Source of the DNA: Leptospiraceae bacterium
GTDB lineage: Bacteria; Spirochaetota; Leptospiria; Leptospirales; Leptospiraceae
NCBI GenBank assembly: GCA_022402465.1
Contig: JAKRSH010000007.1
Location: forward strand, 186,001 to 250,000
Direction: 5' to 3'
DNA: 64,000 bases
Positions 3,725 through 53,038 of the stretch are shown in pieces. Both the position numbers and the translations under genes were made by a program. The stretch's first letter is position 1. Each line of letters begins with the position of its first letter. Below the pieces are notes generated by a model. That model was not told the DNA's origin, made no database searches, and saw only the letters and a list, made by a program, of their open reading frames with translations.

Positions 3725-6265
3725 ATGAAGTCGTTTCAAAAAATTTCAAGAAAGTTTTATATTTTTACAGAGCTTTTAACTTTTTCACTAGTTGTTCCTA
3801 TTGCAGTTTTATTAACTATAATTTTTCTAGAGGCGACTAAGAACCAAATAAAAGTAATTCTTCTCTCATCAAGTATAATTGGAACTTCTCTTTTTCTTTC
3901 GACTTTCATCTCAACACCATTTCTCCTCCGAAAAATTAAAAAGCTTATGATGGCGCAAGAAAATAATCAAGAAATTTCAGAATCTGAATATATCGCGGTT
4001 TGGAATAGCTATGCTAAACTTCCCATTTATATGGCATTGCTTGTTTTGATTCGCTGGATTTTTGGAGCTATCATTGTTGAATCCACACTTTCCTCATTAG
4101 CTGAAACAACAAACACTCAAATAATAAATTTAACTTTTCTTTTGACGATATCTGCTATAGTTAATGTTCCTCTGACCTATCGGCTAAGTGAGGTTACTAT
4201 TTATGATTTTCAGAAAGCAGGTGTATTTAATAGACCTCTTCCTAAAAATAATTCAGTTTATCACAACAATGTTGCAATAGAAAGCCCAATAATGTTGTCA
4301 ATTTTCTTCTTCATCCTCTCAATAGCATTTCTTATGATATCATTTAACTTCAATCGATATTCATTACAAGAAGCCTTCGGCAATCAACTTTCTAATTTCA
4401 GTAAAAGCAATAATAATCTATTAGAGAATTTTTATAAAACTCAAGAAGCTAAAGTACGAGAATTTACAACTTACGATGATACTATTGAAACTATAAAAAA
4501 GAAAAGATTCAAAGACTTTCTACCTTATTTAAATAGCTTAGTGGCTGAACCAACCTTTAAATTAGAAAATGCATTTGTTGCTTCTATGGAATCAGGTTAT
4601 CCTATTCAAGTATCTGCTATTCAAGATGAGATAAGATTTGGAAAGAAATTAATTGACGATCCAAGTATCCAGCCTCTTCTGGATCAAGTTCTAAAAGGGG
4701 AAATTGTTTTTTCTCAAACAGTTCAATCACCAATTACTAAGAAGTATGTTGTCATTCTTCTAGCTCCTATCCTAGATAAAAATAAATCCATCATCGCTAT
4801 AGCAGTCTTCCCTTTTCTGGTTGGAGATTACTTAAATGAAATCCTTCGTTCTGTTAAGATAGGCTCAACAGGCTATCCATTCTTATTGGATCAAAATCAG
4901 AAAATGGTATGGCACCCTAATGCGGATTTAATCTTTTCAGATTGGAAGGATACAGAATTTAGTGAAAATTTTTTGAAGGCTGGTCAAGATATAGAATTTC
5001 TCAATCCTTTTGAAAATTCATTTTTCCTTGTGAATGGAATTAAAAATCAAGAATATGGTTTCACTTTTTTTAGTACGATTGATTATAGAGAAATTGAAAA
5101 TATTTCATTAAAGAATGTTCGTAAACTTTCAATCTTCACTCTTATAGGAATTTTACTGATCGCATCGATAACTTTCGGCATCTTTAGAATCAAATTCCAA
5201 CCCATAAAAATAACAGCAGAAATTCTATCGAAAATTGAGAAGGGAGATCTACGCAATAGAGCGCATGTATCTTCCACAGATGAGTTTGCTCTTATGGTTC
5301 AGGGATTGAATACAACCATGGATAGAATCTCTGCTGTGGTTTCTAATAATCAGATTATTTCGGAAGAACTCGCCACTTCATCGGATGAAATGAGCGAATC
5401 CTTAGACGTGCTTTCAAATAATGCCCAAACACAAGCCGCATCTACGGAAGAAATATCAGCTTCCATTGAAGAAATTTCTGCGGCTGTACAAAACGTTGAG
5501 TCCCAAGCGCTTTCTCAATTTCAGAAGGTAGAAATATTAAAAAGTAAAATGAGCGATCTTTCTACTATTATTAACAATATGAGTTCGAGAATGGAAGGAG
5601 CTTCAAGACAAGTAAAAACAATTACACAAGAAGCAAATAACGGGCAGAAATCACTCGATAAGATGCAAGAAAGTATCATACGAATTGGAGATTCTTCTAA
5701 AGAAATTATTGCTGTGATAGAAATCATTACATCAATTTCAGAACAAATCAACTTACTCGCATTAAATGCAGCTATTGAAGCAGCTCGTGCGGGAAATTAT
5801 GGAAAAGGTTTTGCGGTTGTCGCTGATGAAATTGGAAAGCTTGCTGATAAAACTGCTCAATCAATCAAAGATATTGGGGCATTGATTCAAACCAATGAAA
5901 AAGATATCGAAACTGGAATGGGAATAATTGAATCCACTATTTTGCTTATTCAGAGCATTATCCAAAATGTTTCAACTTTTGATAAACTAACCAATGAATT
6001 GCAAACAGAAACAAAGAACCAATTGAAGATTAACGATCAAGTAAATCAGGAAGTGAACTCCGTGAATGAAATTTCACAAGCAATTCGAACCTCTATGGAA
6101 GAGCAAAAATTAGCGATCAATGAGGTTGCCCAAGCAATTTATAATATTAATGATTTAACACAATCAAATGCTGCTGGACTCGAAGAAATGACTGCCACAT
6201 CTAATAGTTTATCGAATTTAGCAGAAACCTTAAAAGAAAAAATTGGATTCTTTCAGATAAAATAA
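3725..6265 (+). CDS. Methyl-accepting chemotaxis protein with periplasmic Cache-type sensor
   Basis: The 846-residue receptor has several N-terminal membrane helices (residues about 13-215), an extracytoplasmic double-Cache-like domain (about 220-460), a final membrane helix near 470-490, a HAMP domain (about 490-545) and a long coiled-coil signalling domain. The hairpin tip that contacts CheA/CheW is intact near residue 680 ([15 protein letters not shown]). Glu/Gln pairs in the coiled coil provide methylation sites. The extra N-terminal membrane helices before the sensor are more than the two of a textbook receptor. The ligand is unknown. It is transcribed alone, convergent with the next operon. 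Confidence 0.92.
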
Positions 6266-44596: not shown

Positions 44597-44685
44597 TCAT
44601 AACTAGTTTCCAAAGTGCATAAATTCTGGTCGATTTTTTCTTGAATTTTAATTTTATCTTTGAAAAATATTGGGAATGGTTATTT

Positions 44686-44721
44686 GTAGGATTCAATCCT
44701 ACGGCTACGAGAATAACTCTC
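44686..44721 (+). repeat. Right double hairpin of the IS200-like element
   Basis: GTAGGATT-c-AATCCTAC at 44686-44702 is a perfect palindrome, followed at 44709-44721 by GAGAATAACTCTC, a hairpin with one mismatch. It is a direct repeat of the left unit with the same spacing and nearly the same bases. Confidence 0.8.
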
Positions 44722-44756
44722 AAAAATCCATCAACCTTTCAACCAGGAGCTTAACC

Positions 44757-45047
44757 TTGAATAAAAATCTAACCATCGCACTCATCACTATCAACCTCAT
44801 CATTGCATCCATGAACTGCAACCAAGATATTGTTATCTCTACTGAACCTGTTTTAGATTTGGTAAAGGATTCTGATAATTCTGTGAACCAAGCTAATCCT
44901 AGTGCTACAAATTCTAATCAGACAAATACTTTGAATGGTCCAGGTGCTTCTAGTTCTGGTGCAGTAGGATCAGCTCCGGGAGGAGCAACAGGAACTACAA
45001 CTTTTGGAGCAACGGGTTCCCCACCTGGGAACCCTTTAGGCTTTTGA
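44757..45047 (+). CDS. Small lipoprotein with Gly/Ser/Ala/Thr-rich tail
   Basis: The 96-residue product starts at a TTG at 44757, 7 bases after a clear AGGAG site (44745-44749); the longer ATG frame from 44670 would run through the IS end hairpin. It has a signal peptide with lipobox IIASMNC and then a low-complexity tail (GPGASSSGAVGSAPGGATG and so on). I do not recognise it. It lies just right of the IS end, so its promoter may be inside or next to the element. Confidence 0.6.
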   Translation: MNKNLTIALITINLIIASMNCNQDIVISTEPVLDLVKDSDNSVNQANPSATNSNQTNTLNGPGASSSGAVGSAPGGATGTTTFGATGSPPGNPLGF

Positions 45048-45090: not shown

Positions 45091-45693
45091 TTACCTCTTT
45101 TCAATTCTAGACCAAGAAAAGGATCCACAGCCACTCGATCCCGGATTCGTTCTTACAGAGTTATCCACAACCGCTACTGCATCTTCAATTGAACTTTTTG
45201 ATGTGGTTGCATTTAAATTACAATACCAATAGGAATTTACTTTTTCAAGATTTTTAAAGAATACCACCTTAAAAAACTTACCTTTGTTGGTGTCTCCCGC
45301 AAAACAAGCACCGTTGTTAATCGGATTACTTGTTATGTAAAAGCCGGAGTTATTTTCGAATTTTTCTAAAATGGAACAACTTGAAAAACCTCCAAATCCA
45401 GAACTATCACTTAACAAAACACCCTTAGATCCTGATTTACCAGCTACTGTCAAAATTGTTGTTGAACTTGTGCCATTCCCAGTGAATTCATTCCATTGGC
45501 CATTTAATACAAAATCTTTATTTGCTTCTTGTGCCTGTCCAGCTAATAAGCCGACCAGCAAATTTTGATCTGATTTACTTTGATCCACTTGGTTTGGATT
45601 ATTACAAAAAGTAAATACTAAAGAACAAGCTACTGTTGTTAGCATTCTACGAAGGGAAGTTTGTTTTGATCGTACATTTTGTACTTTTTTCAT
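45091..45693 (-). CDS. Putative lipoprotein of unknown function, downstream of a B12 riboswitch
   Basis: This 200-residue protein has a twin-basic N-terminus, a hydrophobic segment and a relaxed lipobox (VFTFC). The mature protein is Ser/Asn-rich with six or so Cys, of which several (FSSCSI, GACFAGD, WYCNLN, GCGSF) may pair. I know no family for it. A ribosome-binding site (CAGGAG) sits well before the ATG at 45693. It is the first gene downstream of the cobalamin riboswitch at 45945-46170 on the same strand, so it is probably made when B12 is scarce and may bind cobalamin or a B12-dependent product at the cell surface; that part is inference. Confidence 0.7.
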   Translation of the reverse strand: MKKVQNVRSKQTSLRRMLTTVACSLVFTFCNNPNQVDQSKSDQNLLVGLLAGQAQEANKDFVLNGQWNEFTGNGTSSTTILTVAGKSGSKGVLLSDSSGFGGFSSCSILEKFENNSGFYITSNPINNGACFAGDTNKGKFFKVVFFKNLEKVNSYWYCNLNATTSKSSIEDAVAVVDNSVRTNPGSSGCGSFSWSRIEKR

Positions 45694-45855
45694 TTTAATT
45701 CTCCTGAAATTTTAATAAACTTTTTGCTCCGGAGAAATAAGGAAAAAATAATAGAACACAACTGCATTACCCATTCAATAGAAATAAGTTGTACTCATTA
45801 AAAATTCTTATAAGCATACGTATGCATGATAAAGAATTGTTAGTATTTAAATTTT

Positions 45856-45896
45856 CCTCGGGAGCCCCGGAGTCTCTTTGTCCTCGGGGCCCCCTC
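45856..45896 (-). promoter_or_regulatory. GC-rich hairpin in the riboswitch leader
   Basis: On the minus strand GGGGGCCCCGAG pairs imperfectly with CTCCGGGGCTCCC around a 10-base loop. It is strikingly GC-rich in AT-rich DNA. No U tract follows, so a plain intrinsic terminator is doubtful; it is probably part of the expression platform or a stabilising leader structure. Confidence 0.4.
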
Positions 45897-45900
45897 AATG

Positions 45901-45934
45901 CCTGCTGCGGGTGAATTCAAAGAATTCAAGCAGG
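45901..45934 (-). promoter_or_regulatory. Bulged hairpin downstream of the cobalamin aptamer
   Basis: An outer stem CCTGCT/AGCAGG and an inner stem TGAATTC/GAATTCA flank a 5-base bulge that reads CCCGC on the minus strand. CCCGC is the same pentamer as in the aptamer's L5 loop, so the hairpin could compete for the L13 loop (see findings). The role as an expression platform is inference. Confidence 0.45.
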
Positions 45935-45944
45935 GCTTTTGAGT

Positions 45945-46170
45945 GTGTTCAGTTTCTATTCCGCGAGAAATTCTGAACGGGGAAGATCGGGCTACCATTG
46001 AATTTTATAGAATATACACTCTGAATTTATAAATCAGAATGTATAATTCAATTTCTTTCTTTGTTACCGTTGCGGGTCAGCACAGGAATTGCACCTGTTT
46101 CCTCCCTGATGACAATTACATACTTTTTGAAATTCGAATTTTTGCAATTAAAAAACTTTCCTACTTACAT
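45945..46170 (-). ncRNA. Cobalamin (B12) riboswitch
   Basis: On the minus strand the conserved core is present: CAGGGAGG (around 46101-46108), CAGGTGCAATTCCTGTGCTG (about 46079-46098) and GACCCGCAACGGTAA (46064-46078). It closely resembles the Escherichia coli btuB leader core. Downstream come a B12-box-like AGCCCGATCTTCC (about 45982-45994) and a hairpin at 45947-45978 whose loop contains GCGG, complementary to the CCGC of the core, as expected for the L5-L13 kissing loop. The 5' boundary is approximate. The gene controlled should be the lipoprotein at 45091-45693. Confidence 0.8.
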
Positions 46171-46250: not shown

Positions 46251-46649
46251 TTACTTCTTCTTGTTAAATGATTGGATATTTACTATCTCAATATCCAAGG
46301 AGACAACAGATAGATGAATCTCCCATAATGATAGACAGAGGGAGATAGCCATACTCACTATAGCTGATCCAAAAAAGATTCTAGCCCCAAAATCATTTCC
46401 TAAAAAGATTGAAAAAATAGAAGCTGTACATAGTAATAGACTCAATACGCCTATAGCTTGTGTATAACGTAAAAGGGAGATTCGGAATCTTAAGTTTTTT
46501 ATTTGCTGCCAATCAGAATCCTTGCCGTGCTCCTGGAATTTAAACAAAAGTTGGCGCATAAGACTTGCTAAACCAAGAAATCGATTAGTATAGGCAAGCA
46601 TCAATAAAGAAATTGCTGGAAAGAGTAGACCTGGAGTGCTAATTTGCAT
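46251..46649 (-). CDS. DUF2721 family membrane protein
   Basis: The 132-residue protein opens STPGLLFPAISLLMLAYTNRFLGLASLMR, cut here in meaning to its pattern TPGLLFPAISLLMLAY, which is the DUF2721 signature. It has three membrane helices (about 6-26, 66-86 and 91-112). The family has no known function. It is divergent from hemA across about 100 bases. Confidence 0.82.
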   Translation of the reverse strand: MQISTPGLLFPAISLLMLAYTNRFLGLASLMRQLLFKFQEHGKDSDWQQIKNLRFRISLLRYTQAIGVLSLLLCTASIFSIFLGNDFGARIFFGSAIVSMAISLCLSLWEIHLSVVSLDIEIVNIQSFNKKK

Positions 46650-46755: not shown

Positions 46756-47640
46756 ATGTGGTCGAACCTTTTATTGATTCATACAGACACGGTATTAGAA
46801 AAACCTATAGATCTACCTGATTTCGAAGCTTGGCACACTTGCCAAAGATCTATCTATCTTAGCGATACACGAATCGCATCCTTCTACCAATTTCCAGAAC
46901 TTTCAAAATATGAAATATACACAGGCTATGAGGCTTATCGATTTTTATTAGAAGTTGTAACTGGTGTACACTCTAAAGTATTTGGTGAATCAGAAGTACT
47001 TGCTCAGTTCAAAGAAAAATTTTCATCAGATTACATAGTTCAAGAACCTTTAAAGGATTTCTTCATTAAACTTCGAGATCAAATTTTAGAACATTGTAAA
47101 ATTGTTAGATCCGCATTTTTACATGGTCATGGAAGAATATCTTACGGAGGAATCGCAGACTTACTTCTACCTGCTGAAGAAGATGTAGCCATCTTCGGTA
47201 CGGGAAAATTAGTACAATCCATAATTCCATACATACTTAAGAAAAATAGAAAGATTACTGTTATTGGTCGTAATTCTGAGCGAATGAAAGAACTTGAAAC
47301 TATGTTTCCAATATCTACTTCCTACTATGAGGACTTTGAGGTTGGAATTGAAAATTATGTTTTAGCATCGCCAATTCTACTTGCTTCAATTCTTGAAAAT
47401 AAAAAAGACAAATTTACCTTCCTCGATTTTAGAGGAGAATCTAAAATATCTTCTCCGAAAAGCGAATGGAAGTACTATTCCCTTGATAAGATTATGCAAA
47501 TAATTTCTGAATCAGAAGATCATTTCAATACAATTAAACCTAAAATTATTCAATTTATTTCTGAATTATCTACTGCTAGAGAACAGGAATTGATTCATTT
47601 GCCTCATGGATGGGATGATTTATCTTGCTATCAGAATTAA
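46756..47640 (+). CDS. hemA: Glutamyl-tRNA reductase, short form
   Basis: HemA reduces glutamyl-tRNA to glutamate-1-semialdehyde, the first step of the C5 heme route. The 294-residue protein keeps the catalytic Cys29 (TCQR), GESEVLAQF and the NADPH-binding IFGTGKLVQ near residue 145. It lacks the C-terminal helical dimerisation domain that brings typical enzymes to above 400 residues. An AGGAG lies 13 bases before the ATG, slightly long. It is the first gene of the heme operon and overlaps hemC by 16 bases. Confidence 0.87.
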   Translation: MWSNLLLIHTDTVLEKPIDLPDFEAWHTCQRSIYLSDTRIASFYQFPELSKYEIYTGYEAYRFLLEVVTGVHSKVFGESEVLAQFKEKFSSDYIVQEPLKDFFIKLRDQILEHCKIVRSAFLHGHGRISYGGIADLLLPAEEDVAIFGTGKLVQSIIPYILKKNRKITVIGRNSERMKELETMFPISTSYYEDFEVGIENYVLASPILLASILENKKDKFTFLDFRGESKISSPKSEWKYYSLDKIMQIISESEDHFNTIKPKIIQFISELSTAREQELIHLPHGWDDLSCYQN

Positions 47641-49265
47641 TTATTGGTTCTCGAAAGTCTTCTCTAGCCAAATTCCAATCTTACTTAGTTGCTTATCAAT
47701 TAAAAAATAAATTTCCTGAACTTCAAATCAAATTTAGATTTATAGACTCTCAGGGTGACCGAGATCAGACAACAGCTCTTTGGAAGATGGAAGGAAAATC
47801 TGTTTTTACACAAGATTTACATGCTGATCTAATCGCTGGAAACATTCATTGTATAGTTCATTCATGGAAAGATCTAGATTTAGAGGAAAGATTGGAAACA
47901 GTCGTACAATCTGTCCTAGAAAGAGAAGATTCCAGAGATGTACTGCTATTTAAAAAATCAACAATTGAAAATATAATCAACAATCAATCAAGAAACTTTA
48001 GATTCATAAATATTGCTACTTCTTCTCCGAGAAGAGAAAGAAATTTAGGAATCTTTTTACCTAAATTTTTGCCAAAATCATTACAAAATATTCCCATTCA
48101 ATTCAATCCCATTCGAGGCAATATCCAAACTAGATTTCGTAAGTTCATTGAACAAGACTTTGATGGATACATTGTTGCAAAAGCTGCATTAGATCGAATG
48201 TTAAATCCAGAGATACTTTGGAAGGACCATCCTATCAGAATTGATATTTTTGAAGAAGATAAAAAAGAATTTATTGAAAACAAGATTTTCCTTCAAGAAT
48301 GTATAACGCGATGTGAGTTTATGATTTTGCCGCTTTCGCAAAACCCTAGTGCCCCAGCCCAAGGAGCTCTTTGTGTAGAATATCTTAAATCTGATACAAA
48401 AATGAAAGATTACTTATTTCAATTAGAGAACAAATCGACCAAGCTAACGGTTATTAAAGAAAGAGAATTCTTATCAGAATATGGAGGAGGCTGTCACCAG
48501 AAAATAGGAGTCTCTATTCTTGAAAGAGAATTTGGAGTTATCAAATTCACAAGAGGATTAACAGATAGTGGAATTGATCTTGAAGATAGTACAATTTTGC
48601 CTTTAAATATTCTAAATGAGAAAAATAAATCCACTTCTGGAACAAATTATAAAAAGAAATATAAATCCACCGAAGTTTGGCCTCCAAATAGAAAAATGGC
48701 TGAAAGAACTCGAAATACCATACAAGTTTCTATTCCGAAAGAAAAGGATCTTTTTATTACGAGATCCAATGCTTTACCAGAGAATTTTGTAAATGATTTT
48801 AATTCTAATCCAAATAATTACACTAATCCTTTGAGATGGACTGCTGGATTGAACACTTGGAAAGATCTTGCAGAACGAAATATTTGGGTTCATGGAAGTT
48901 TTGATAGCTTAGGTGAAAATGAAAAAATGAATATCGAGAATTTAGTGAATCGACCTTTAAATTTCATTAAACTTACGCATAACACTGATTACCAAACTGC
49001 CTCTGAATCCAATTTTCCTATAATAGCAACGTATCAAGTCAGTTCACCTATTATTCCAGTTGAATTTGATCCAACAAAAATTAAGGCTGCTTTTTGGAGA
49101 AGTATAACAGAATACGAAGCATTGACATCTCAATTTCCAGAACTAATGAATGTGGATCATTATTCAGGACCTGGTTCCACATATAAAATGTTAAGTAAAA
49201 AACATAAAAATCCTACAGTTTACCTATCATTCAACCAATGGTTAGAGGATGTTATTGAAGCTTAA
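47625..49265 (+). CDS. hemC: Porphobilinogen deaminase with C-terminal uroporphyrinogen-III-synthase-like domain
   Basis: The 546-residue protein has the HemC pattern in residues 1-330: IIGSRKSSLAKFQ, HSWKDLD (catalytic Asp), SSPRRERN, APAQGALCVEY and the dipyrromethane-cofactor Cys290 in GGGCHQKIG. After a linker the last 180 or so residues (from KDLFITRSN) look like a shortened HemD, with AAFWRSITEYEAL and SGPGSTYKML. As I recall, the Leptospira protein has been reported to carry both activities. Translation starts at a TTG that overlaps hemA. Confidence 0.88.
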   Translation: MLSELIIGSRKSSLAKFQSYLVAYQLKNKFPELQIKFRFIDSQGDRDQTTALWKMEGKSVFTQDLHADLIAGNIHCIVHSWKDLDLEERLETVVQSVLEREDSRDVLLFKKSTIENIINNQSRNFRFINIATSSPRRERNLGIFLPKFLPKSLQNIPIQFNPIRGNIQTRFRKFIEQDFDGYIVAKAALDRMLNPEILWKDHPIRIDIFEEDKKEFIENKIFLQECITRCEFMILPLSQNPSAPAQGALCVEYLKSDTKMKDYLFQLENKSTKLTVIKEREFLSEYGGGCHQKIGVSILEREFGVIKFTRGLTDSGIDLEDSTILPLNILNEKNKSTSGTNYKKKYKSTEVWPPNRKMAERTRNTIQVSIPKEKDLFITRSNALPENFVNDFNSNPNNYTNPLRWTAGLNTWKDLAERNIWVHGSFDSLGENEKMNIENLVNRPLNFIKLTHNTDYQTASESNFPIIATYQVSSPIIPVEFDPTKIKAAFWRSITEYEALTSQFPELMNVDHYSGPGSTYKMLSKKHKNPTVYLSFNQWLEDVIEA

Positions 49266-49286
49266 ATCAAAATTAGGAAATTATAA

Positions 49287-50606
49287 ATGACTAATTCTTT
49301 AAATTTATTTGAAAGATCCAAAAAAGTTTCCCCAGGTGGAGTTCATTCTCCCGTTCGTTCTTTTACCTCTGTTGGTGGAACTCCCGTTTTCTTTAAAAAA
49401 GCAGAAGGAACTAAACTTTGGGATGTTGAGAATAACGAATATATAGATTTTTGTTTAAGCTTTGGCCCTTTACTCTATGGACATAGACACCCAGACATTG
49501 CAAAAGTAGTTCGCGAAACAACAGAGCTAGCTTGGACATTTGGTGCAGCTGAACCGTATTCTTTGTACTTAGCAGAGTTTATTACTGAAAATATTCCTTG
49601 GGTAGAGAAGATACGATTTGTCAATTCAGGAACAGAAGCAGTCATGTCAGCTCTACGAGTTGGTCGTGCTGCGACTGGCAGAAATAAAATACTTAAATTC
49701 GATGGTTGTTACCATGGTCACTTAGATTCACTTTTAGTTAAGGCAGGTTCAGGTCTTGCTGGTGAATCCTCATCCGATAGCGCGGGTATAGGTAGCGAAC
49801 AGATTTCAAATACTCTTGTTATACCTTTAGATGATGAAATTGCGCTAGAGGATTTATTCGAAAGAGAAGGAACAAATATTGCTGTTGTTGCAATCGAACC
49901 ATTGCCAGCTAACTATGGTTTATTGATACAAAGAAAAGAATTCATGCAAAAATTAGCAAATCTTTCAAGAAAATTTGGATGCTTACTTTTATTTGACGAA
50001 GTGATTTCTGGATTTAGAGTTAGTTTTAAAGGAATGGCATGGGAATTAGGTATTGAACCTGACTTAGTTTGCTATGGAAAAATTCTAGGAGCTGGATTTC
50101 CAGTAGGTGCATATGCTGGAAAAGCAAAGTATATGGATTTAGTTGCTCCCCAAGGCCCAGTCTACCAAGCAGGAACTTTAAGTGCGAATCCCTTTGGTAT
50201 GAGAGCTGGCTTGGCTATGTTAGAGAAAGCGTTTAAAGAGAATCCCTATCCCATACTTGAAGAAACAACTAACTATTTTACTACGAATATGATCAATCTT
50301 TTAAATAAGTATGCAACCAAAATTCCAGACAAAGAAGGAAAGATCAAATCTGACTTCCAATGGGAAGCTGTTGCTTATGGATCCTTATTTTGGTTTAAAG
50401 AAAAAACTGAACATTCTGTTCGTTCCGTCTCAAATATTCCTCTTGGTCATAAGGAACGTTTTGCGAAGGTATTTCATGCATTGCTTAAACATGGAGTTTA
50501 CCTTGCTCCAAGTGGTTATGAGGTTGGCTTCCTCTCAACAGAACACAATATGCAAATTTTGAATGAAGCATTAAATCGTGCCGAAGAAGGCCTAAGTAAA
50601 TTATGA
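49287..50606 (+). CDS. hemL: Glutamate-1-semialdehyde 2,1-aminomutase
   Basis: The 439-residue class III PLP aminotransferase has [12 protein letters not shown] at the start, [28 protein letters not shown] and the PLP lysine Lys265 in [17 protein letters not shown]. It makes 5-aminolevulinate from the HemA product. It follows hemC by 21 bases and its stop overlaps the hemE start as ATGA. Confidence 0.97.
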
Positions 50607-51652
50607 AAACAAATTTTAAAAATACAATCATTAACGAAAGATTTTCCAATGCGATTCACCGCATTCCACAAAATACTCCACCTATTTGGTTTATGCGACA
50701 AGCAGGTAGATATCATTCTCACTACCGAAAACTACGAGAAAAATATTCCTTCATTGATTTATGCAAAATTCCAGAATTAGCATCTGAAGTAGCCTTAGGT
50801 CCAGTATTAGAATTCGACTATGATGTATCCATTTTGTTCTCAGATCTTTTATTTCCATTAGAAGCAATGGGTATGGGATTAAAATATGAACCAGGTCCTA
50901 TCTTATCCAATAGAATAGAATCTTTGGATGATGTGGACAAATTGTATTCTGTTGAACAATCTTTGGAAGGAATTTTATTTCAAAAGAAAGCTCTTGAATT
51001 CACTAGAGCTGCACTTCCTAGTCAAGTATCCCTGATTGGATTTGTAGGAGGACCATGGACGCTTTTTACTTATGCTAATTCTGGTAAGCATGATGGGAAC
51101 TTAAGTAAACCTAAATCAAATATTCAGCTGATTCAAGCATTCTATAATAAATTACTACCTCTTTTAAGAGAAAACATAAAACTTCAATTAGCTTCAGGAG
51201 CTGAAATAGTAATGATTTTTGATACTGCAGCAGGTGACCTAGCACCGTTGCAATTCAATGATTATGTTACTAAAGTTTTAGAACCAATCATAAGTGAATT
51301 TCCCTATCAAATAGGTTATTATGCCAAGGCAGGAACTAGAGACCAAATTCATTCAATAAATAATATACAAAATCTCGCTGGCTTTGGGATAGACCACCGA
51401 TTCAGAATGGAATCAATTCTACAGGAAGGTTTTGCAAGAGGATTTGTCCAAGGTAACTTTGATCAGTCTTTATTCTTTCTACCCACAGAAGATTTTAAGA
51501 AGGCACTTAAAAACTATCTCGCTCCAATCAAAGAACTTTCAAATCAACAAAGAGCAGGATGGGTTTCTGCATTAGGACATGGTGTCTTACCACTAACACC
51601 AGAAAATCACATAAAGTATATGGTTGAATTTATCAGAGAAACATTTCAGTAA
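50603..51652 (+). CDS. hemE: Uroporphyrinogen decarboxylase
   Basis: The 349-residue protein opens its fold with [17 protein letters not shown], the substrate-binding signature with its conserved Arg residues, and has the internal [14 protein letters not shown] segment with the catalytic Asp. It removes four carboxyl groups from uroporphyrinogen III to give coproporphyrinogen III. ATGA overlap with hemL. Confidence 0.97.
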
Positions 51653-51670
51653 AAGCTTGATGAATTTAAT

Positions 51671-53038
51671 ATGAATAAGGAACAAAAATTGAATACATCA
51701 AATCTACTTATTAAATACGATATACCAGCTCCGCGTTATACAAGTTATCCTACTGTTCCCTATTGGACTGATAACCCTAGTACGGAAGAATGGATAAATT
51801 CATTAAACAATACTTTAGATGTTTCAAATAAAAGTCTTTCTTCTTATTTTCATATTCCATTTTGTGAAACACTTTGCACTTTTTGTGGATGCAATACTTC
51901 CATAACGAAAAATCATTCACTCGTTGAAACTCCTTATTTAGATGCTTTAGAAGCAGAAATAAAGTATTACTTAGCTTCAGTTCCCAAACTTAGTTCTAGT
52001 CCATTCAAAGAAGTTCATTTAGGCGGTGGAACACCTACATATTTTTCTGATGAAAATATGGAAAGATTGCTTTCTATGATTCATCGACATCTTCCATTAA
52101 GCAATGATGCGGATCTTTCAATTGAAGTAGATCCACGTCGCACTCGAGTATCCCAACTTGAAATTCTCTATAAATATGGATTTAAAAGAATCAGTTTAGG
52201 TGTTCAAGATTTTGACAAAGAAGTTCAAAGACTTGTAAATAGAATTCAGCCTTTCGAAATTACTAAAAAAATTACAGAATGTTCTAGAGAAATCGGTTTT
52301 GAATCAGTAAATTTTGATTTAATATATGGGCTTCCTCGCCAAAATCTTGAATCTATGAAAAAATCTATTGAGTTAACTATTTCACTTCGACCAGATAGAA
52401 TTGCATTTTATTCCTATGCTCATGTTCCTTGGATAAAATCATCACAAAGATTATTTACAGAAGATGATTTACCTCAGGCAAGAGAAAAGAGAGAACTTTA
52501 TGAACAAGGCAGACACTTACTTGAAGCGAATGGCTATAAAGAAATTGGTATGGATCATTTTGCTTTGGAGACTGATGGACTTTGGAAGGCATTAGAAAAT
52601 GGAACCTTACATCGAAATTTCATGGGATATACAGAAAAATATTCTGATATTCTACTGGGCTTCGGAACTTCTGCAATTTCTGAAAGTCCTAATTGCTTTC
52701 ACCAAAATGAGAAATTAGAAATAAAATATAGGAAATTAATTTCTGAAGGCTCTATACCTACCTTACGTGGACATAAGTTAAATGAAGAGGATATTATAAG
52801 AAAAAAATTAATACTCGAATTCATGACCACTTGGAAAGTATTGATTCCTCTTGAATTATTTGAAGATGCCAAAGAATATCTTTCTGATATGGAAATGGAT
52901 AGACTGATAAAATGGGAACAAAATCTACTTCGCATAACAGAAATAGGTAAACCTTTTCTCAGAATAGTATGTACTGTTTTTGATGAAAAATATAGAGCAA
53001 ATAAACCAGCTAAGAATCTTTTTTCTAAAACGTTATAA
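51671..53038 (+). CDS. hemN: Oxygen-independent coproporphyrinogen III oxidase
   Basis: The 455-residue radical SAM enzyme binds its cluster with Cys65, Cys69, Cys72 and Cys74 (FCETLCTFCGCNT) and has the EVHLGGGTPTYF and SIEVDPRR segments of true HemN, not of the HemW-like proteins. It works without oxygen. The hemF alternative is not in this window. Confidence 0.95.
   Translation: MNKEQKLNTSNLLIKYDIPAPRYTSYPTVPYWTDNPSTEEWINSLNNTLDVSNKSLSSYFHIPFCETLCTFCGCNTSITKNHSLVETPYLDALEAEIKYYLASVPKLSSSPFKEVHLGGGTPTYFSDENMERLLSMIHRHLPLSNDADLSIEVDPRRTRVSQLEILYKYGFKRISLGVQDFDKEVQRLVNRIQPFEITKKITECSREIGFESVNFDLIYGLPRQNLESMKKSIELTISLRPDRIAFYSYAHVPWIKSSQRLFTEDDLPQAREKRELYEQGRHLLEANGYKEIGMDHFALETDGLWKALENGTLHRNFMGYTEKYSDILLGFGTSAISESPNCFHQNEKLEIKYRKLISEGSIPTLRGHKLNEEDIIRKKLILEFMTTWKVLIPLELFEDAKEYLSDMEMDRLIKWEQNLLRITEIGKPFLRIVCTVFDEKYRANKPAKNLFSKTL

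Follow-up and report, generated by a model that had tools for sequence, protein, structure and literature searches.

The closest described counterparts of the locus reported here are the BtuB-BtuG-BtuH/BtuJ loci of Bacteroides (PMC6143338, PMC8941943, PMC10404256, PMC12751083), in which a TonB receptor, a beta-propeller lipoprotein and other surface lipoproteins that bind B12 stand under cobalamin-riboswitch control. The H-domain of BtuG1 and BtuH2 are both cobalamin-binding domains (PMC8941943, PMC10404256), and DUF4465/BtuJ is a known B12-binding jelly-roll (PMC13398666). Leptospira need B12 (PMC3493377), and papers on the genus report cobalamin riboswitches upstream of btuB and of the cob operon (PMC3493377, PMC3953431, PMC5288384). 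A third RF00174 element of L. interrogans Manilae, rh4854, has been placed on chromosome 1 at 4078407–4078514, between LIMLP_17135 and LIMLP_17140 (PMC7567364). The lipoprotein LIC_13355 has been studied for its binding to laminin and plasminogen, with no mention of B12 (PMC11891782).

We analyzed a 64,000-nucleotide stretch of the genome of an uncultured Leptospiraceae bacterium (the window), in which a single minus-strand open reading frame of 200 codons (45091–45693), encoding a secreted protein or lipoprotein, stands behind a cobalamin riboswitch aptamer. Cobalamin-riboswitch control is shared with the Bacteroides loci, and the TonB receptor, the beta-propeller lipoprotein and the further B12-binding surface lipoproteins all have putative spirochaete counterparts by likeness. 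However, the Bacteroides loci belong to another phylum, and we found nothing in the descriptions of the B. theta loci that corresponds to the lipocalin-like lipoprotein encoded by the first gene of the spirochaete operons; the window gene, moreover, has a riboswitch to itself and is not part of the genome's BtuB operon.

Several other features surround the locus. On the opposite strand it adjoins a heme-synthesis cluster (46756–53038, plus strand) comprising a hemA-like gene (GlutR_N), a hemC-like gene (546 aa), an aminotransferase gene (hemL), hemE and a radical-SAM hemN-like gene, with no separate hemB between the hemC-like reading frame and hemL. A DUF2721 gene (46251–46649, minus strand) shares the strand of the riboswitch and closely precedes it. 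A small reading frame (44670–45047, plus strand) with a possible lipobox, a Gly/Thr/Ala-rich tail and no Pfam match is convergent with the lipoprotein gene, and an IS200-like Y1 transposase gene (PF01797; 44135–44596, plus strand) is also found near it.

The aptamer occupies 45962–46142 on the minus strand, as defined by a full-length match to the Rfam model RF00174; it was also scored with R1, a covariance model that we built from 15 related riboswitches, the window sequence among its seeds. In a permissive scan, RF00174 aligned over model positions 1–189 with 27.6 bits, which is below its gathering score of 31.5 bits, and an Rfam scan at the default gathering cut-off did not report the window aptamer. 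The E-value was 4.2e-5 for the 607-nt leader, 0.0044 for the window and 6.5e-5 for the genome, whose scan (3.99 Mb) returned only two matches, the window aptamer and one on another contig (25.6 bits). R1 scored the window aptamer at 77.7 bits over 45954–46107. The conserved core at 46064–46108 (minus strand) is laid out as GGGAGGAA-P4-CUGACCCGCAACGGUAA, comprising the 5′ strand of P3, the P4 hairpin, P5/L5 with CCCGC, and GGUAA, in columns that are invariant in 15–16 relatives. Unconstrained minimum-free-energy (MFE) folding of the leader recovered P3, P4, P5 and P13 (z = −5.4). The P13/L13 hairpin, GUUCAG..UUUCU-CGCGGAAU-AGAAA..CUGAAC, was located at 45947–45978 (minus strand) by the MFE fold and a scan for L5/L13 pairs, and the GCGG in its loop (L13, 45964–45961) is complementary to the CCGC of L5 (46072–46075, minus strand, read 46075–46072). 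A first-pass annotation made on the DNA letters had claimed a minus-strand aptamer core at 46064–46108 with L5/L13 complementarity; both claims held, in sequence and in coordinates, and the Infernal search with RF00174 that it had proposed as a check gave the full-length match, below the gathering score and significant genome-wide, described above.

The RNA structure is also supported by comparison with relatives. The L5/L13 arrangement was present under strict criteria in 14 of 37 relatives, against a mean of 4.25 and a maximum of 9 in shuffles. Across 37 aligned aptamers, 96.5% of cells were paired, changes on both sides were seen at nine pairs, and the covariation score was 0.439, compared with 0.147 for shuffled alignments (0/500) and at most 0.166 when partners were slid. 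The alignment was fitted to the model and is thus somewhat favorable to it; the margin is large all the same. Covariation support extends to the four-way junction of P3–P6. This junction core, the L5/L13 kissing loop and the AGCCxGA junction element are shared with RF00174 and RF01482 (clan CL00101). In many of the relatives' riboswitches P6 is very short or absent and RF01482 is the best-scoring model, whereas P6 of the window aptamer is long and AU-rich and the Rfam score of this aptamer is low; we offer this as a structural remark only, which says nothing about ligand preference. Taken together, the window aptamer is very likely a genuine cobalamin riboswitch, although binding of cobalamin by the RNA is inferred from sequence alone.

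The end of the R1 model is separated from the ATG by 261 nt, in which three hairpins can be identified on the minus strand. A G+C-rich hairpin, GGGGGCCCC..GGGGCUCCC (45861–45894), is supported by folding and has an inferred role; a hairpin like it covers the ribosome-binding site in the second B12 leader of the genome. An AU-rich hairpin followed by a U run (45800–45838) is a possible terminator, a weak inference from the fold, and a consensus scan of the leader for intrinsic terminators flagged neither this hairpin nor anything else convincing. The third (UUCUCC..GGAGAA, 45699–45736) covers the Shine-Dalgarno sequence just 5′ of the ATG in the MFE fold, and a hairpin of like kind was found in seven of eight folded leaders, with individual z-scores that were not significant. 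A scan of the leader's minus strand for one promoter type, sigma-70-like, found none. In one related genome (G002), the P13 hairpin lies immediately 5′ of the start of a TonB receptor gene and contains its likely ribosome-binding site, suggesting translational control there. The route from switching to the window gene is unsettled, and an independent promoter within the long leader is not excluded.

The position of the gene behind the riboswitch is conserved well beyond this genome. The relatives available comprise one genome for the window genus and eight for the window family; all eight hold a cobalamin riboswitch (one or two each), and in all eight a homologue of the lipoprotein is the first gene behind one. 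A profile of the eight family proteins picked up homologues in two other families of the class, the sister family and a third one. Searching with R1, we found a same-strand upstream riboswitch for 8/8 genes in the window's own family, 18/19 in the sister family, 5/6 in the third family and the single gene found outside the class, so that 32 of 34 homologous genes have a riboswitch within ∼400 nt upstream. No riboswitch was found for two genes, the leading copy of a tandem pair in G021 and a gene near a contig start in G037. The Rfam models alone also place a riboswitch before most homologues, the relatives' aptamers scoring above the gathering score. The genus Leptospira was absent from the relatives retrieved, and the count therefore leaves out the leader of LIC13354. 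With only one or two riboswitches per genome, the probability of chance adjacency is ∼1e-4 per gene; the linkage is thus not due to chance, even allowing for shared descent. The window lipoprotein belongs to the B12 regulon, a conclusion that rests on genomic linkage without expression data. The tandem lipoprotein genes of G021 (L092:3425–3826 and 5240–5920) merit a separate remark: in the first, for which no riboswitch was detected, an in-frame stop codon lies close to the start, and this copy is perhaps decaying.

Neither the window protein nor its family profile could be assigned directly by searches of Pfam, NCBIfam and PDB sequences. A weak match to DUF402 (E = 0.087) was discarded as an identity for the protein. 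NF047669 (LIC13354 family exoprotein) was matched by 11 of 27 family members, with a best E-value of 7e-13 and below its cut-off (∼28–31 bits for the relatives tested, against 130 bits), and the window protein itself did not match it even at E = 10. Homology is instead traced through intermediates, from the profile of the window protein's family to sequences (that of G020, for example, with E = 3e-18) that in turn match NF047669 (E = 3.6e-7). The window protein is thus only a distant relative of the LIC13354 family and does not meet the NF047669 cut-off. A C-terminal region with conserved cysteines and a tryptophan is common to NF047669, known from L. interrogans, and the family of the window protein; the NF047669 entry states no function. 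This protein family of the window gene is very divergent, with a mean column identity of 25% and only G65, C158 and C189 invariant among 27 members; position 67 is W or Y in 27/27, and 23/27 have R or K after the C-terminal tryptophan. A lipobox Cys is present in 24/27, and the window protein has Phe at −1, which is unusual even for spirochaetes. Its lipoprotein nature and surface exposure are inferred from sequence alone, without localization data. In genomes that we take to be Turneriella-like, a reading frame of 430–490 codons behind a cobalamin riboswitch carries the C-terminal LIC13354-like region twice (L184:2375–3685, minus strand; L067; L068).

An AlphaFold2 model of the window protein (pLDDT 82) displays a confident beta-rich domain at residues 58–200. 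Most of the solved structures closest to it are lipocalin-like (4iab, Z = 8.8; 4i95, Z = 8.6; 4gzv, Z = 8.5; Treponema Tp0751, 5jk2, Z = 8.4), and the best of these scores is only slightly higher than the usual background of Z = 7–8. Foldseek gave no match to the model at E ≤ 0.001 (E = 0.087). With lipocalins and lipocalin-like bacterial lipoproteins, the family shares the predicted barrel, a GxW/Y motif at the start of the barrel and an Arg/Lys near the C-terminal tryptophan; however, the window protein has no sequence match to them and its structural scores are middling. A lipocalin-like barrel is therefore a reasonable predicted fold for this domain, not an assignment of membership, and no cobalamin-binding lipocalin was found in the literature searched.

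Directly downstream of the lipoprotein gene, most relatives have a gene for a second lipoprotein of ∼285 aa, which is a clear member of the LIC_13355 family (NF033170, 287.7 bits against a cut-off of 120); this membership applies to the operon partner and not to the window gene. When the AlphaFold2 model of the partner (pLDDT 81, pTM 0.78) was aligned with 987 chains, the top two were the BtuG1 H-domain (8blw_B; Z = 12.6 over 173 residues, 3.6 Å) and BtuH2 (7biz_B; Z = 12.3 over 168 residues, 3.6 Å), the third reaching only Z = 10.2, and Foldseek matched 8blw_B with E = 8e-4. A profile search found no sequence-level link between the partner and BtuH. The partner is thus predicted to have a BtuH-type fold, on the basis of model and context, and its binding of cobalamin is inferred without binding data. 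DUF4465/BtuJ was also considered for the partner and is absent from the listed structural matches, an absence that does not exclude it. Twelve LIC_13355-family loci from non-spirochaete lineages, labeled mostly Myxococcota or Deltaproteobacteria, were available for comparison; five of these (L101, L102, L108, L114 and L094) have a same-strand upstream RF00174 riboswitch scoring 76–112 bits. In two of the twelve, both from non-spirochaete MAGs, the domain lies behind a propeller-like N-terminus in one reading frame (L097:19–1623 and L103:4792–6612), echoing B. theta BtuG1, a BtuG-BtuH fusion (PMC10404256).

In the window genome the LIC_13355 partner does not adjoin the window gene and is placed under the second riboswitch (L004, G000:C19), where the LIC_13355-like gene is followed by a TonB receptor gene and a gene for a propeller-type lipoprotein. 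The best NCBIfam match of the receptor is TonB-B12 (TIGR01779; E = 3.4e-35), and BtuB is among its PDB matches; at 121.7 bits it does not reach the equivalog cut-off of 599.7, and hence we name it BtuB-like only. The only PDB matches of the propeller profile are BtuG-type (8okv, 8p97/8p98 and 8puj), with weak E-values of ∼0.01–0.02, and its gene order with the TonB receptor agrees with BtuG. The whole set is found together in four other genomes (G011, G018, G020 and G021), where the BtuB-BtuG genes neighbor the lipoprotein genes. As a side observation, G002 encodes a LIC10920-family lipoprotein (L018:5427–6161; NF047807, 243 bits, cut-off 210), a family named for plasminogen binding, downstream of its riboswitch-controlled TonB receptor gene.

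The genome, rated 100% complete, encodes the B12-dependent methionine synthase MetH and CobS, and CbiC was not found in it. CbiC is an enzyme of corrin-ring synthesis, and CobS acts late in salvage. The presence of MetH and CobS without CbiC indicates that import and salvage are probably required, and it is likely, as a genomic inference, that the organism imports and salvages corrinoids.

The remaining claims of the first-pass annotation fared as follows. That a single lipoprotein gene lies downstream held (one 200-aa reading frame); its description as Cys-rich was generous, there being two invariant cysteines and the lipobox Cys; and the statement that it has no known family held only for direct searches, as through its relatives it joins the LIC13354 family at a distance. 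That no TonB receptor, Btu transporter or cobalamin-synthesis gene is near held for Btu genes nearby, with the qualification that the second riboswitch, at another place in the genome, stands over a gene for a BtuB-like receptor. The suggestion that the organism may depend on B12 uptake is supported by the absence of CbiC alongside MetH and CobS. Lastly, its proposal of a B12-controlled lipoprotein as a candidate for a new cobalamin-capture component is supported by the 32/34 linkage, the BtuH-like neighbor and the second operon, whereas actual capture remains an inference.

We consider it likely that the window lipoprotein is a B12-repressed surface accessory of a BtuB-BtuG-BtuH-type corrinoid uptake system, although there are no binding, expression or localization data. 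In this model, high cobalamin would close the aptamer (45962–46142), L5 would pair with L13 and expression would drop; when cobalamin is scarce, expression of the lipoprotein would rise. The surface or released lipoprotein would then act at the outer face together with the BtuH-like LIC_13355 lipoprotein, the BtuG-like beta-propeller and the BtuB-like TonB receptor, so that corrinoid captured at the surface would be handed to the receptor. The surface exposure and the role in capture and hand-over are inferred, as is the sign of regulation, which is taken by analogy from other cobalamin riboswitches. The least certain step is direct binding of corrinoid by the lipocalin-like domain, which could as readily prove wrong as right.

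The alternative that survives best, and that remains possible, is that the protein belongs to the B12 regulon without binding B12 and supports the BtuH/BtuG-like proteins as an accessory protein of the surface or of vesicles, a BtuL-like factor for assembly or release. The LIC_13355-like companion already provides a BtuH-like domain, and B. theta BtuL and BtuK2 are riboswitch-operon lipoproteins for which no cobalamin binding was detected (PMC12751083); furthermore, the low column identity of the family, with only G65, C158 and C189 invariant, leaves no obvious conserved ligand pocket. Against this, lipocalin-like folds usually carry small molecules, and the gene usually heads its riboswitch operon and persists even without operon partners, as in the window. 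A second alternative, which we regard as unlikely, is an adhesive or structural surface protein for which B12 control merely reports the environment. In its favor, recombinant L. interrogans LIC_13355 binds laminin and plasminogen (PMC11891782), and in host-implanted chambers the expression of both LIC13354 and LIC13355 goes up ∼3.7-fold (PMC3953431). However, both families are present in uncultured environmental lineages, the LIC_13355 family also stands behind B12 riboswitches in Myxococcota and Deltaproteobacteria, and the closest folds to the partner are B12-binding domains; in addition, the recombinant LIC_13355 came from insoluble material that had been refolded, and the paper reports no assay with B12 (PMC11891782).

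It is very unlikely that the riboswitch does not control the lipoprotein gene, that is, that the leader RNA stops at the hairpins of 45800–45894 and the gene has a promoter of its own. The 261-nt leader contains two stable hairpins there, one with a U run after it, which would fit this explanation; yet the order is kept in 32/34 homologous genes though their leaders diverge, a ribosome-binding-site hairpin recurs in 7/8 leaders, and no sigma-70-like promoter, the one type scanned for, was found on the leader's minus strand. That the aptamer-like sequence arose as a chance match is all but excluded, for although its score is below the Rfam gathering cut-off, the alignment is full-length, the genome-wide E-value is 6.5e-5, R1 (of which the window is a seed) gives 77.7 bits, and both the family-wide covariation and the conserved position speak against it.

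Beyond our preferred reading of the window lipoprotein as a surface accessory of corrinoid uptake, a bolder one can be put forward, to which we lean slightly against committing ourselves: the LIC13354 family would consist of lipocalin-fold corrinoid binders, and LIC13354 and LIC_13355 of Leptospira, treated until now as an exoprotein and an adhesin, would capture B12 and be controlled by a third cobalamin riboswitch of the genus. Judging from its rough position near the chromosome end, rh4854 could possibly be the LIC13354/13355 locus; a mapping of the LIMLP tags to LIC13354/13355 was not found in the literature searched, and we treat this as a lead and not as evidence. If true, the bolder reading would mean that B12 scavengers include a structural class not known before.

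Neither cobalamin riboswitches nor BtuB/G/H systems are novel in themselves; new, within the literature searched, are the tie between the LIC13354 and LIC_13355 families and B12 control, and the predicted BtuH-like fold of LIC_13355. Capture of B12 by surface lipoproteins has been worked out almost only in Bacteroides, and the spirochaete version, which has BtuB-, BtuG- and BtuH-like parts, brings to the capture systems a lipoprotein family not earlier tied to B12. Two Leptospira families of unknown role thereby gain a testable function, and LIC_13355, studied as a host-matrix binder, looks to be a B12-binding domain that several phyla keep under B12 control. How Leptospira obtain the B12 they need is an open question. 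The pairing of riboswitch and lipoprotein gene recurs class-wide beside B12-capture genes, and this neglected family is probably part of the way in which these spirochaetes collect B12.
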